This document shows, piece after piece, positions 21,413 to 26,437 of a stretch of DNA of 57,116 nt. Position 1 is the first letter of the stretch. Each line of letters starts with the position of its first letter. Made by a program: the position numbers and the translations under genes. The DNA comes from an uncultured bacterium. Lineage in GTDB: Bacteria > Chloroflexota > Anaerolineae > J036 > Brachytrichaceae. The notes under the pieces are model-generated. The model was not told the DNA's origin. It made no database searches and saw nothing but the letters and a program-made list of their open reading frames with translations. The DNA is taken from assembly GCA_903921365.1 (NCBI GenBank), contig CAIXPS010000192.1, positions 1 to 57,116 of the forward strand, written 5' to 3'.

Positions 21413-22639
21413 TCAAGCATCTCCTGAACATTTTTTGCCTGGCAGGATGTCATCGGACTCTCTCGTGGCGTTTGTCATGTATGGGAGTTGCTCTTGCAGT
21501 GTTTCGACGATGCGGCGCGCTTCAAGGCGATCGACATGCAGGAAGCGCGCCAGCTGGCCTTCAGTGATTTTGGCGTCCCTGAATGCGTTAACAGCCAGGA
21601 GTTGGTATCGCATGGGCAGCGGATGGTCACGCGATGGAATATAGTCAAGCTCAAGTTCCTGGCGCGTTTCACGCACACTCAAACCTCTTTCTTTCTGATG
21701 TTCCCATACGCCAGCAGGCAGTATTTTCATACCCTCCAGGCGACGTGTAAACGCCTCTGCGGAGACGCCATAGTAGTGTGCCAGGACCATCAAGTCGGCA
21801 AGCATAAACTTGCCCGCCGCCTGTTTGACGTCATTCACACGGCGAATGATGCTTGAGGTTGGCATCAGGAAATACATGGCGAAGGCATCTACCAGCCGCT
21901 CTTCCTCCGGCACACGTTGATACACGGACAAAAACGAGCCATGCGATTTCTGCCGAGCAACCAGGAAGTGACCGTAGTCGCGCGCTAATGACCATCTACG
22001 CCGTTCTTCAGCGTGTTGCGCGTTTACACCAATACAAGCTCCAAGCGGCTCAACGTAAAAATACAGTGCCGAAACCGTTGAGGGCTGGAAAGGTAGATAA
22101 AAGACGCGTATCCCAACATCCTGTTCCAGAATGTCGCGCAGCATTGGTATAGGGCCATCACCCAGGCCGAGTCGATTTCTTTCCTGGATGGCGATGCTTT
22201 CTGCAGCCTGCTGCGCCGAGGTGTTTGCAGTCGCGTATTCAGCCGGATACTTCCGGGTTAGCGGCGCGCCCACGATCTGCTCAAGTTCGAGGTAATCCAT
22301 CGCATATTGGCGCAACAGTTCGACGGACTGTTCCAACTGCTGCTGATCGCCTTCCGACAAAAATGCCGGCCCACGCAGACGAATGCTCGTAAGCTCAAGG
22401 CTTGGACGTGGGCGGACGAAGTCGCTGATCTGCCGCCCGTAAGTCTGAGCAAGCATGATCAGTTCATTGGCCTTGATGCGGCGTTCACCTTTTTCGATAG
22501 CCGTCAAAGTCGTCCGCGCGGCATTGATCACCTTCGCAGCTTCCTCCTGCGTCATGCCGCGGCTTTTGCGAGCGGCTTGCAGTTCCCTGCCCAACTCGCG
22601 CGTATCGATCGTATCAAGAATGTTCGTGTTTATCTCCAT
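21413..22639 (-). CDS. XRE-family regulator fused to ImmA/IrrE-like domain with degenerate zinc site
   Basis: A 408-residue protein. Residues 15-70 form an XRE helix-turn-helix (ARKSRGMTQEEAAKVINAARTT, then LTAIEKGERRIKANEL). The middle (about 150-300) is an ImmA/IrrE-type peptidase fold: ERNRLGLGDGPIPMLRDILEQD, then the place where HExxH is expected, then VDAFAMYFLMP. Here the active-site helix reads SLARDYGHFL (about 215-225): the first His and the catalytic Glu are replaced by Arg and Asp, so proteolysis is unlikely. A C-terminal region (about 300-408) may sense a ligand or bind DNA. Known relatives pair with mobile elements, toxin systems or stress genes. A promoter with a palindrome over the -35 lies upstream. 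Start ATG 22639 has AAGG six bases upstream. Confidence 0.88.
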   Translation of the reverse strand: MEINTNILDTIDTRELGRELQAARKSRGMTQEEAAKVINAARTTLTAIEKGERRIKANELIMLAQTYGRQISDFVRPRPSLELTSIRLRGPAFLSEGDQQQLEQSVELLRQYAMDYLELEQIVGAPLTRKYPAEYATANTSAQQAAESIAIQERNRLGLGDGPIPMLRDILEQDVGIRVFYLPFQPSTVSALYFYVEPLGACIGVNAQHAEERRRWSLARDYGHFLVARQKSHGSFLSVYQRVPEEERLVDAFAMYFLMPTSSIIRRVNDVKQAAGKFMLADLMVLAHYYGVSAEAFTRRLEGMKILPAGVWEHQKERGLSVRETRQELELDYIPSRDHPLPMRYQLLAVNAFRDAKITEGQLARFLHVDRLEARRIVETLQEQLPYMTNATRESDDILPGKKCSGDA

Positions 22640-22700: not shown

Positions 22701-22753
22701 GCTGTAGTGGTGTTATTGATGCAGAAATGTCAGAAATTTAGGCCATGGCTTGC

Positions 22754-22836
22754 CACGGATGAAAGGATTCCACGGATGCGCGCGGGCTCTTATCCCGGAA
22801 CGCATCCGTGAATCCGGTTCATCCGTGATTCAGACT
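22754..22836. repeat. Imperfect 24-bp inverted repeat of the CACGGAT family
   Basis: The arm at 22754-22777 (starting CACGGATGAA) and the arm at 22804-22827 (ending TTCATCCGTG) are near-perfect reverse complements. The right side continues into ATCCGTGATTCAGACT (22821-22836), found again in both arms of the element at 25957-26131. It lies just past the stop of the truncated YgjP gene. Confidence 0.75.
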
Positions 22837-22845
22837 GCATTTTCA

Positions 22846-23271
22846 TTAATACTCCCACACCTCATGCGCCAGCGGGGCGTGGTTCAGTTCATCCCTGTAT
22901 AACTGCCACTGGGGCATGAATTGGTTCATGTGCGCTGTAAAGCGGTCGTTGTGGCGGCGTTCAAGCAGGTGCACCAGTTCGTGCACGACGATGTATTCGA
23001 GGCACAGGGGCGGCTTCTTGATCAGCTCCAGGTTGAGCCAGATGCGCCGGGCGTCGATGTTGCAGGTTCCCCAGCGGGTCTTCATCTGCCGGATGCCCCA
23101 GTTCGTGCCGGGGACGCGCCGATTGGAAATCCGGGGCACGCCGGTGCAACCAGTGCACACCGATATTGAGCGCACGCGATTCGGCAGCATAGTCGTGGCT
23201 CGTGCCGGGAACTGTGGTGGTGTATTACATATTGGTGGCACGATGCGCATGAGATGGATCTGCCAAGTCAA
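22846..23271 (-). pseudogene. YgjP/SprT-like (M48-type, DUF45) metallopeptidase, N-terminally truncated
   Basis: The C-terminal 95 residues match the YgjP-like zinc peptidase family: WGIRQMKTRWGTCN, INLELIKKP-like IWLNLELIKKPPL, the zinc motif VVHELVHLLERRHNDRF (HExxH) and the ending YRDELNHAPLAHEVWEY. The upstream part of the frame (VRSISVCTGCTGVPRISNRR...) does not resemble the family, and the first 130 or so residues are missing, because the frameshifted DUF1330 gene lies there. The fragment is therefore probably a remnant. In intact loci YgjP-like genes often lie directly after hsdR, and an HsdR stub is indeed found 0.4 kb upstream. No convincing start codon or Shine-Dalgarno site is visible. 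Confidence 0.7.
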
Positions 23272-23566
23272 TTACTGGACACCTTCGACAATAATCATCT
23301 GGCTGCGCGTGGCACAGAATGTGGCGTATCTGCTTGAGCGGAGCGTATTCCGGCGAATTCAACCATTCTTTGGCACGTGCGACACTGGCAAACTTTAAAA
23401 TGATCAATCCTTTGGGCACACAGTCGCCTTCCACCGTTTCAGTTGCGCCATTACGCACCAGATATTCACCACCATACGCAGCAACCGTGGCTGCGACGCC
23501 TCTGATATATACCTGCATGGCAACCGGATCGGTAACCTCCACCTGATTCAGCACGTATGCCGACAT
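23225..23566 (-). CDS. DUF1330 family protein, probably frameshifted near its C-terminus
   Basis: A small (113-residue) dimeric-barrel protein of unknown function. Family features are MSAYVLNQVEVTDPVAMQVY, TVAAYGGEYLVRNGA, LIILKFASVARAKEWLNSPEYAPLK. The start at 23566 has AAGGTGG upstream. After residue 85 the open frame reads HAQPDDYCRRCPVID, unlike the family, whereas the +1 frame reads ATRSQMIIVEGVQ and stops at 23272. That is exactly the expected family ending, so a one-base indel near 23305-23325 has shifted the frame. The gene occupies the place where the body of HsdR and the N-terminus of YgjP would be, and it looks like a later insert. It may be a real lesion or a consensus error. Confidence 0.75.
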   Translation of the reverse strand: MSAYVLNQVEVTDPVAMQVYIRGVAATVAAYGGEYLVRNGATETVEGDCVPKGLIILKFASVARAKEWLNSPEYAPLKQIRHILCHAQPDDYCRRCPVIDLADPSHAHRATNM

Positions 23567-23660
23567 TTTTCGCCACCTTATCAATCATCAAACACGAGCA
23601 GCGATTGCCCATGTGTATGGAAACAGGCCAAGTATATGGCAAACCTTTTCGCGGCAACAT

Positions 23661-23864
23661 CAGCAACCTGTGGAGACCGTGGTGGATGATGAGGTTGCAG
23701 CTATAGCCCTGCCGCTTCAGGAACGGGCGCAACAAGTCTTCTTCGATGTTGCGGTTGTCATGACGGCCTGACCAGATGCCCAGGTAGGTGTAGTGCAGGA
23801 CATCTCGAAACAGGCGAATGACCCGTTGCTGCGTGGCGCGCTCGATCTGTCCTACTGGCGGCAT
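23661..23864 (-). pseudogene. HsdR N-terminal stub (type I restriction endonuclease subunit R)
   Basis: From ATG 23864 the first 68 residues match the N-terminus of type I restriction subunit R: GQIERATQQRVIRLFRD, then LGIWSGRHDNRNIEEDLL, then FLKRQGYSCNLI. The family then continues for about 900 residues through nuclease and helicase domains; here the frame turns into unrelated sequence after about 23661, although it stays open to 23466. The ATG is one base after the TGA of the NucS-like gene, so the intact ancestor was probably part of the same operon. The stub has no catalytic residues and can be taken as non-functional. Confidence 0.7.
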
Positions 23865-23865
23865 G

Positions 23866-24801
23866 TCACACCTTCATCAGTTTGAAGTCGATCTTGTAGC
23901 GATAGAACTCAACATTGGGAATCATCGAGAGCGCATACTGCAATTTGTCGTCGTTATCAAGCGCGATAATAATGCCTTTGATGGTTTGTCCAGCTACGGC
24001 GAGTTCTTGCTTCACATATCCCATGTAACGCAATATCTGGCCGACAACGACATCACTTGCTTTACCTCGCTTCAACTCAACGACCAGTAACTCGCCTTTG
24101 TCCTTCCTGATCGCCAGGATATCGATGACGCCGGTATCTGTCTGATATTGCTGACCGGCAAGTTCGTTATCTTCGGTGAAGATGTTGTAGTTTTTCCCCA
24201 GTTCAGTCTGTGACCAGTTCCGCACGAGAAAGTCTTCCAGGTGTTTTTCCATGGCAAATGCATAGAGGTCTTCGACGGGTTCACCGTTCACAATAATCAC
24301 GGGTGGTGTGATACCCGACAGCAATTGCTCGATCTCATCCCGGTATCCAGCCATACTACACACAGTCGCCCTTCCGGTGGCAGAATTCTGCAATGCTAGA
24401 CTCATTCTCGCCTTTTCAATCGACGTATCAAGCCAATGTACCGGTCGACAGTGTGTCAGTTCATGGCCTGGTGCGTAATAATAGTCACCGGTCACTTCGC
24501 CGACATGATATCGGCCTGTGCCGTCCGGACACAGCACCCTATCGCCTGTCTGGATGCCCTTGCATATCGTCCAGATGTAACCGCCGATCTGGCCTGCGCC
24601 TGGTCGGGTTCTTTCAGGATACAAGGTTGTAAATACCGGTATGAACCAGGCGTTGAAATCATGCCAGTCTTCATATAGCCGGTTAGCCAGGTTCTCGTCG
24701 CTGCCATTGGTATAAGGTTTTATACCAATGTAATTTCCGGCGAAGCACTCCTGTGCGTAAACATGACCCTTGCCCAGCATGACTCGGTAGTAGTTTGTCA
24801 T
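23866..24801 (-). CDS. NucS-like PD-(D/E)XK endonuclease with N-terminal PUA/EVE-like domain
   Basis: A 311-residue protein. The N-terminal 130 residues (YYRVMLGKGHVYAQECFAG, IWTICKGIQTGDRVLCPDG, HVGEVTGDYYYAPG, HCRPVHWL) resemble the PUA/EVE-like modified-base readers seen in modification-dependent restriction enzymes. The C-terminal half is NucS-like (DUF91): a complete PD-(D/E)XK core with Asp in TGVIDILAIRKDKG and E-x-K in LLVVELKRGKAS, followed by VGQILRYMGYV. The ATG at 24801 is chosen because GAGG lies six bases upstream; it is 7 bp after the stop of the preceding nuclease. The family and context suggest cleavage of modified or foreign DNA. Intact motifs contrast with the decayed type I genes around it. 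Confidence 0.78.
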   Translation of the reverse strand: MTNYYRVMLGKGHVYAQECFAGNYIGIKPYTNGSDENLANRLYEDWHDFNAWFIPVFTTLYPERTRPGAGQIGGYIWTICKGIQTGDRVLCPDGTGRYHVGEVTGDYYYAPGHELTHCRPVHWLDTSIEKARMSLALQNSATGRATVCSMAGYRDEIEQLLSGITPPVIIVNGEPVEDLYAFAMEKHLEDFLVRNWSQTELGKNYNIFTEDNELAGQQYQTDTGVIDILAIRKDKGELLVVELKRGKASDVVVGQILRYMGYVKQELAVAGQTIKGIIIALDNDDKLQYALSMIPNVEFYRYKIDFKLMKV

Positions 24802-24808
24802 AGTAACC

Positions 24809-25855
24809 TCAATTGGAATCGGGCTTTTGTTGCAAGTTGTAAAGGTCACGATACCACGCGATCCACTTGTCCAGTTCTGCATCGCGACACATGCCGGCAG
24901 CCTCGATCACATCGGTCGAGGTGAAGACGGAGAATTTGGGATTGTGGGCGATCAGCTCCCGGTATCTATCCAGGGATTTGTCCAGGGAGATGTTGCCTTT
25001 GTGCTTTACGACTGAAAAAGTAACATGCTTGTAGCCCTGCGACGTATCTTGCTCGATGCTTAAGCCCAGCAGTTGATTGCGCCAGAGTTGGTTCAAGCCG
25101 CCTCGAAATGGACATCCAGTAAACCCGGCGCCGTTGGCAAAAAAGGCTTGGTTGTCAGCAGTGATATCCCAATACGCGAAGTGGCACTTGTCGTGGTAAT
25201 AGCACCAGTGCTTGTCTGCAACAAGCTCCGCAAAACTCTTGCGGCAATCGCGTCTGGGATTTTTATGTTTTTGATTGCTCTTATAACCGCCACAATCCGT
25301 GAACTCATCTTCGGTCAGCTTGTGCTCGATCAGCCACAGGCACAACTCACCCTCATGGTTGTAGTAGGCAATGGCAATATCCGCGTCGGTTCCAGACACC
25401 TTCTTTTTATCGTTGAGATGACCGCCGTTCGGCTTATCACCCCAGAATTCGAGTTGGTAGCCACGATCCAGTTTTTCAGTCGCTAGCCGGGCAAAGTCGG
25501 GTTTTAGCCTGCCAAGGATGGCGTTCACGTTGGCATGCTGCAAGAGCGGCAGGAATAGATTGATATTGGCTGCCTGCGAACTGGCCATATGGTTGAAATA
25601 CAGGTGTGTGCGGAAAGGATAGCTCAGACGATGCTGCTTTAGTGAATCCACCACGTCTGGATATACGAACGGATATTGATCCGCATACGAGTCCGGCAGA
25701 ATCGCGTCGTAGTGCAGACCACGAGGCCCTATGCCTGGCTCCCTGGTGACGTGCTGCCTTTTCCAGTTGATCAGATGGACATACATGTCCTGCTGGAATG
25801 CATTGAGCGAACTGGGAAGTCTGTAATCCTGACCGTCGATCTGTTGTGTTTTCAT
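24809..25855 (-). CDS. Putative restriction endonuclease (PGN_0703-like, PD-(D/E)XK)
   Basis: A 348-residue protein, also readable as 358 residues from ATG 25885. I prefer ATG 25855 (MKTQQIDG...) because GGAAGGA lies about ten bases upstream while the longer start has no Shine-Dalgarno site. The nuclease core is GTDADIAIAYYNHEGEL followed by LWLIEHKLTEDEF, giving the D...E-x-K pattern. A Cys/His-rich stretch (CGGYKSN, RRDCRKSF, KHWCYYHDKCHF) could bind zinc. The overall pattern resembles the PGN_0703 group of predicted restriction endonucleases; this assignment is from memory and moderate. The gene ends 7 bp before the NucS-like gene, and the two probably work as a pair. Confidence 0.72.
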   Translation of the reverse strand: MKTQQIDGQDYRLPSSLNAFQQDMYVHLINWKRQHVTREPGIGPRGLHYDAILPDSYADQYPFVYPDVVDSLKQHRLSYPFRTHLYFNHMASSQAANINLFLPLLQHANVNAILGRLKPDFARLATEKLDRGYQLEFWGDKPNGGHLNDKKKVSGTDADIAIAYYNHEGELCLWLIEHKLTEDEFTDCGGYKSNQKHKNPRRDCRKSFAELVADKHWCYYHDKCHFAYWDITADNQAFFANGAGFTGCPFRGGLNQLWRNQLLGLSIEQDTSQGYKHVTFSVVKHKGNISLDKSLDRYRELIAHNPKFSVFTSTDVIEAAGMCRDAELDKWIAWYRDLYNLQQKPDSN

Positions 25856-25956
25856 ACGAGACGTGTCCTTCCGGTCAGTAGCCATTGTAACTGTTCAGAC
25901 TTGAGGTAAAAAAACGACGCCTCTGCAGCGACCCGTAAAGGCTGGGAACGGAAGCA

Positions 25957-26131
25957 GTCTGAATCACGGATTGCCACAGATTAAAGGATTGTACGGATAA
26001 GAGCAGAACGGAATCGGCGTGATTCCGTAATCCATGGTGCGGGCTCTTTTGCCACGGATAAGTGGATTTGATGGACGCGGGTCGGTTCTTATCCGTTTCA
26101 TCCGTCAATCCGTGTAATCCGTGATTCAGAC
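25957..26131. repeat. Palindromic element with 16-bp perfect terminal inverted repeats (CACGGAT family)
   Basis: GTCTGAATCACGGATT (25957-25972) is repeated in reverse at 26116-26131, and the similarity continues inward for about 45 bp with a few mismatches. An inner hairpin ACGGAATC-GGCGT-GATTCCGT sits at 26008-26028. The right end overlaps the HsdM-like remnant and supplies its stop codon (GTC-TGA). The element lies between that remnant and the start of the first nuclease gene. The terminal word also occurs at 22821-22836. Confidence 0.8.
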
Positions 26132-26437
26132 ACTGTACCCCATCCTGCGCAAATGTTCATCCACTCTGGCGCTCAAGGTATCGACCTCAGCGGACAGCGC
26201 TGCAACTGGCGTGGCATAGCGTTCGGCCAGTTGCTTGATGCGCCCGGTCAAGGCCTGCGACACGCGGTCGAGTTCGGCCTGCACGCCGACGGAGAGCGCG
26301 CTCAGCCATTTGTCCTCGACCACCAGCGTTTTCACCTCGTTGGAGCTCAGTGCCGTCGGGATCAGGTCGGGCTCTTCCTTGCGATCCTCGTCGATCAGGC
26401 GCAGCCGCCCGCCGGCCAGCCGTCGGTGATGAGGATA
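26126..26437 (-). pseudogene. C-terminal remnant of a type I RM subunit, probably HsdM
   Basis: About 104 codons remain in frame without a start of their own. The readable part, RLRLIDEDRKEEPDLIP, then SSNEVKTLVVEDKWLSALS, ELDRVSQALTGRIKQLAERYATP and ARVDEHLRRMGYSV, resembles the C-terminus of type I restriction-modification methylase subunits as I remember them. An internal ATG (26335) could give a 69-residue peptide, but there is no Shine-Dalgarno site. The 5' side abuts the stop of the helicase-associated gene, so the rest of hsdM has been lost. The final codon and stop lie inside a palindromic repeat. Assignment to HsdM rather than another subunit is moderate. Confidence 0.5.

Follow-up and report, generated by a model that had tools for sequence, protein, structure and literature searches.

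Two intact PD-(D/E)XK-type nuclease genes in the remains of a type I restriction-modification operon of a Chloroflexota bacterium

The slot between hsdS and hsdR in type I restriction-modification operons is known to house embedded defence genes. In the RptR-RMS-DarTG-M48 island of EPEC it holds DarTG2, and the authors of that work suggest that the slot may be a recombination hotspot (PMC12255303). TgvAB, a modification-dependent pair of the GmrSD type, lies in a type I operon of V. cholerae VPI-2 and confers protection without HsdR nuclease activity (PMC11411939). In EcoprrI, the embedded protein is PrrC, an anticodon nuclease that is held by the type I complex (PMC3874165). Fusions of EVE and PD-(D/E)XK domains have been proposed to be type IV enzymes (PMC7641849).

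The locus described here uses the same slot as the EPEC island, and a metallopeptidase gene follows hsdR in both, but the occupants are two PD-(D/E)XK nucleases (P1 and P2, below) and the hsd genes around them have been destroyed. Its likeness to TgvAB lies in the two accessory restriction genes of a type I operon and, by analogy, in the HsdR-independent protection that is proposed here. Neither P1 nor P2 carries a GmrSD_N (DUF262) domain or gives a GmrSD match at E values up to 1, and neither belongs with GmrSD or TgvAB. Like EcoprrI, the operon contained an extra effector gene; unlike PrrC, P1 and P2 look like DNA nucleases.

The window, 57,116 nucleotides long, is one entire contig of a metagenomic Chloroflexi assembly (6.88 Mb in 603 contigs, 97% complete). 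On the minus strand, the order is a Helicase_C_3-domain gene, HsdM remnant, repeat, P1, P2, HsdR stub, DUF1330 gene, YgjP stub, repeat and XRE-IrrE gene. The features are as follows.

26126..26431, minus strand: HsdM C-terminal remnant, ~100 aa, with clear homology over the last 72–86 aa (PADLOC MTase_I, 3e-20; 65% identity over 72 aa to the intact HsdM of locus L071)
25940..26131, no strand assigned: imperfect inverted-repeat element of a dispersed family, at the hsdS position (repeat search; 19 partial matches in the genome, spread over 6 contigs)
24809..25885, minus strand: P1, PD-(D/E)XK nuclease, REase-ARP/PDDEXK_13; homologues begin at 25855, giving 348 aa (Pfam, alignment, AF2 model)
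23866..24801, minus strand: P2, PDC-S02/"endonuclease NucS domain" protein (PADLOC, 1.1e-133; Pfam NucS_C, 1.5e-8)
23688..23864, minus strand: HsdR N-terminal stub, 59 aa (PADLOC REase_I, 8e-14; 69% identity to residues 1–58 of L071 HsdR)
23225..23566, minus strand: DUF1330 gene, flanked by the HsdR and YgjP stubs (Pfam DUF1330, 8.8e-23)
22846..23115, minus strand: C-terminal stub of a YgjP/SprT-like metallopeptidase, ~85–89 of 238 aa, with the HExxH region kept (Pfam YgjP-like, 1.1e-31; 72% identity over 85 aa to L071 YgjP)
22750..22840, beyond the YgjP stub: second repeat element (repeat search)
21413..22639, adjoining the wreck: XRE-IrrE gene (HTH and Peptidase_M78), which PADLOC places near RmrA

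The first-pass annotation of this DNA had given this gene order and two tight spacings, and the coordinates bear it out exactly: 7 bp separate the end of P1 (24809) from the start of P2 (24801), and 1 bp separates the end of P2 (23866) from the start of the HsdR stub (23864). The two PD-(D/E)XK proteins that it had called intact do have open frames and conserved catalytic-motif residues. The DUF1330 gene between the stubs and the flanking repeats are additions to its account. The DUF1330 family match ends at profile position 81 of 94, so the 3′ end of this gene is probably disturbed. A relative of the XRE-IrrE gene, also of HTH-IrrE type, is found within the slot of locus L010, an Anaerolineae operon described below; for this reason the XRE-IrrE gene may once have been part of the operon.

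The locus is a collapsed type I restriction-modification operon with intact accessory nucleases. Its remnants follow the layout hsdM-hsdS-X-hsdR-ygjP in the same order and on the same strand as in loci L010, L020, L014, L019 and L071. Among the type I families compared, the one found at L071, an intact operon of a Chloroflexota relative, matches the stubs best (65–72% identity: HsdM 65%, HsdR 69%, YgjP 72%). The possibility that the hsd fragments belong to other families is answered by these identities and by the PADLOC matches to MTase_I and REase_I. A type I system requires complete HsdM, HsdS and HsdR; here there are only an HsdM C-terminus and an HsdR N-terminus, no HsdS remnant is detectable in the 20 kb searched, and no type I activity can remain at the locus. 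The earlier reading, in which the type I machinery is lost while the accessory nucleases are whole, is thus correct.

With the genome in 603 contigs, the truncations might be thought to be artefacts of a metagenome-assembled genome. Against this, the absent parts of HsdM, HsdR and YgjP are on no other contig of the 97%-complete assembly, which makes a simple split assembly unlikely; the remaining HsdR-like and HsdM-like matches in the assembly are 26–38% identical to queries to which the stubs are 61–70% identical, and the genome holds further, unrelated type I-like loci. In addition, a genome of the same genus shows its own, different deletions at an operon of this kind. An assembly artefact is, in our judgement, highly improbable. 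Degenerate dispersed repeats of the ATCCGTG type lie at both flanks of the locus, one of them exactly at the expected place of hsdS, and recombination between copies of such repeats may have driven the deletions.

P1 passes the cut-offs of two Pfam families, REase-ARP (PF22558, 1.7e-19) and PDDEXK_13 (PF20796, 1.2e-15). A literature search for REase-ARP found no paper using that name. In an alignment of 13 rows, D169, E187 and K189 are invariant. The AlphaFold2 (AF2) model of P1 has a pLDDT of 80 and a pTM of 0.83. Foldseek found no significant structural match to this model, a sequence comparison with the PDB returned nothing meaningful, and among the structure comparisons it is VIA-align that speaks for the fold: BspD6I, Can2, FokI, NucS/EndoMS and Shedu are near the top of its list with Z of 5–6.5, and most top rows have the PD-(D/E)XK fold, a Z of ~6 not being proof by itself. 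Taken together, the catalytic motif and the predicted fold place P1 in the PD-(D/E)XK superfamily. The same alignment contains several conserved cysteines, among them C198, C214, C228 and C258, which suggests a zinc or iron–sulphur site comparable to those of some other PD-(D/E)XK nucleases. P1 had no match in viral contigs, phages or plasmids.

P2 matches two PDC-S02 profiles over their full length (its residues 1–310 cover positions 1–307/308; best PADLOC E value 1.1e-133). PDC-S02 is a candidate class of PADLOC that mixes Mrr- and NucS-type catalytic domains; in P2, the nuclease domain is recognised by Pfam as NucS_C (1.5e-8), and D227, E242, K244 and Q255 are invariant. The N-terminal domain of P2 recurs in other architectures. 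It is fused to Mrr_cat in four Chloroflexota loci and to McrB-like AAA_5 proteins in four others, one of these proteins being matched to McrB structures by sequence. Since this domain is common to Mrr- and McrB-type enzymes, P2 is probably a modification-dependent restriction enzyme, which is the most economical reading of a protein that combines a shared, putative reader domain with a NucS_C-type nuclease, the two parts expected of a type IV enzyme. A comparison of the N-terminal domain with the EVE profile (hhalign) gave a probability of 72% over 32 columns around a G-D-x-V ... G-x-V-x-G-x-Y core, which is suggestive only, and Pfam EVE gave no hit. The AF2 model of P2 is poor (pLDDT 50), so the assignment of a reader fold is a sequence-based one. 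P2 was not found in viral contigs or phages, and the DNA of the P2 gene of Acinetobacter was not found in E. coli genomes.

A scan of species genomes for P1 yielded 13 loci. The P1 loci considered number 17 in all, a convenience sample from pattern scans and not a census. At 12 of these, the window included, hsd genes or their remnants lie beside P1. Two Anaerolineae loci, L010 and L020, show the full order hsdM-hsdS-...P2-P1-...hsdR-ygjP, with the HsdM of L020 cut by a contig end; relatives with a complete operon, for which the first-pass annotation had suggested a search, do therefore exist, with the nucleases in the order P2-P1. In L014 and L019 the order is hsdM-hsdS-P1-...-hsdR-ygjP, and the slot also contains further genes, among them GmrSD pairs or a Fic gene. 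L012, L013 and L017, each cut short by a contig end, preserve parts of the hsdM-hsdS-X-hsdR-ygjP layout; in L071 the hsd-ygjP set is complete and P1 is in two frames, and in L016 P1 stands behind the hsdS of a different type I family. The remaining two are wrecks, L009 and L070. No hsd genes are present in the fetched flanks of P1 at three loci (L011, L021 and L075), and at two more (L015 and L018) the sequence breaks off immediately upstream of P1.

P1 and P2 occur together at three loci, as P1-P2 in the window and as P2-P1 in L010 and L020. P2 also has a place of its own in the slot: on Acinetobacter plasmids it lies between hsdS and hsdR, with an Abi gene between it and hsdR, and a SprT-type peptidase gene comes after hsdR. 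On a Paracoccus plasmid (L123, 584–8162), another type I operon has, between its hsdM and hsdS, a gene for a protein that joins the P2-like NucS domain to a different N-terminus; an FRG-domain gene is part of that operon too. The orthologous helicase of a further genome of the same genus shares no neighbours past the helicase with the window and was uninformative as a candidate empty site.

The base composition of the window separates the nucleases from the remnants around them. GC3 is 77%, 76% and 85% in the HsdM, HsdR and YgjP stubs, and 62%, 57% and 52% in P1, P2 and the DUF1330 gene, respectively. Relative to HsdM and HsdR, a tendency in this direction is seen in L010 and L020 and is absent in L071 and L009. 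Both the contents of the slot and the order of P1 and P2 vary among the relatives, which fits insertion into the slot. The GC3 contrast and the variable slot support the view that P1 and P2 are later arrivals than the hsd genes.

These observations can be assembled into a history of the locus that we consider probable as a whole. The original operon would have had the layout hsdM-hsdS-[accessory genes]-hsdR-ygjP, and P1 and P2 would have entered the slot between hsdS and hsdR, where relatives hold varied defence genes. Later deletions would have erased hsdS completely, left a minor part of hsdM and hardly any of hsdR, and cut off the 5′ part of ygjP. The DUF1330 gene now separates the HsdR stub from the YgjP stub, and a dispersed repeat occupies the hsdS position. 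P2 would be a self-contained, modification-dependent (type IV-like) enzyme whose N-terminal domain reads a modified base and whose NucS-like PD-(D/E)XK domain cuts. P1 is a second PD-(D/E)XK nuclease; their three co-occurrences suggest that it perhaps acts with P2. In the intact relatives, P1 and P2 would act as a complement to type I restriction, the part that TgvAB plays in V. cholerae.

An explanation that falls only a little short of being probable is that the locus is merely decaying: P1 and P2 would be whole because the deletions are recent, and, having relied on the type I complex or on its promoter, they would be lost in their turn. Several findings agree with it. The stubs keep a conservation of first and second versus third codon positions equal to that of intact genes, and they have diverged no more than intact orthologues have from one another (third codon positions are near saturation, 31–60% identical). 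The collapse is therefore probably recent, the open frames of P1 and P2 need no selection, and their integrity alone is no sign of retained function. Long neutral decay of the locus is rejected in view of the codon-position structure that the stubs retain. In relative-rate tests, P1 is not accelerated, and P2 has the longest branch, with an excess that is mostly not significant. P1 itself has been inactivated elsewhere, by a nonsense codon in L009, by a frame break beside intact hsd genes in L071 and by two nonsense codons in L075, where there are no hsd genes, so P1 is not generally retained. In a promoter search of the locus, matches did not exceed chance level, and the stretch directly in front of P1 had none; the loss of hsdM would have carried away the promoter of the original operon, though transcripts of the upstream helicase gene may read through into the pair.

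Three other loci weigh against simple decay. L070 (9450–13240) is an independent second wreck in which a whole P1 and a GmrSD gene are flanked by an HsdS end of 50 aa on one side and an HsdR fragment on the other, and in L011 and L021 P1 occurs without hsd genes in the fetched flanks. These cases keep alive the idea that the nucleases are autonomous. The same-genus wreck L009, in which HsdR is an open frame of 464 aa, has its own deletion: at 1028–1590 an HsdM N-terminus of ~155 aa is fused in frame to the C-terminus of HsdS; this operon type has collapsed there independently. Of the two explanations that the first-pass annotation had offered for the intact pair, that they are the newest arrivals gains from the GC3 values and from the variation in slot and order, and that they have a job of their own is plausible but, the collapse probably being recent, unproven.

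The persistence of P1 where hsd genes are lost or absent (the window, L070, L011 and L021) also bears on a reading modelled on PrrC, in which P1 and P2, sitting in the same slot, would be latent toxins kept in check by the type I complex. PrrC likewise lies within a type I operon (PMC3874165), and the 7- and 1-bp spacings are those of operon-coupled genes. An unguarded toxin, however, should not be tolerated at such loci, and the family searches report neither P1 nor P2 as PrrC-like; we regard guarded toxins as improbable.

The proposed history, with P1 and P2 as inserted nucleases, fits the known pattern of defence genes lodged in type I operons, of which this locus is a real but modest case. 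What is new is that P1 is a recurring occupant of the slot and P2 another, and that the embedded genes have outlasted the operon. Two nuclease families thereby join the defence genes known from within type I operons. This natural case makes it testable whether restriction genes lodged in this way need the type I complex or merely borrow its operon; P1 and P2 themselves may be capable of defence against viruses in their own right.
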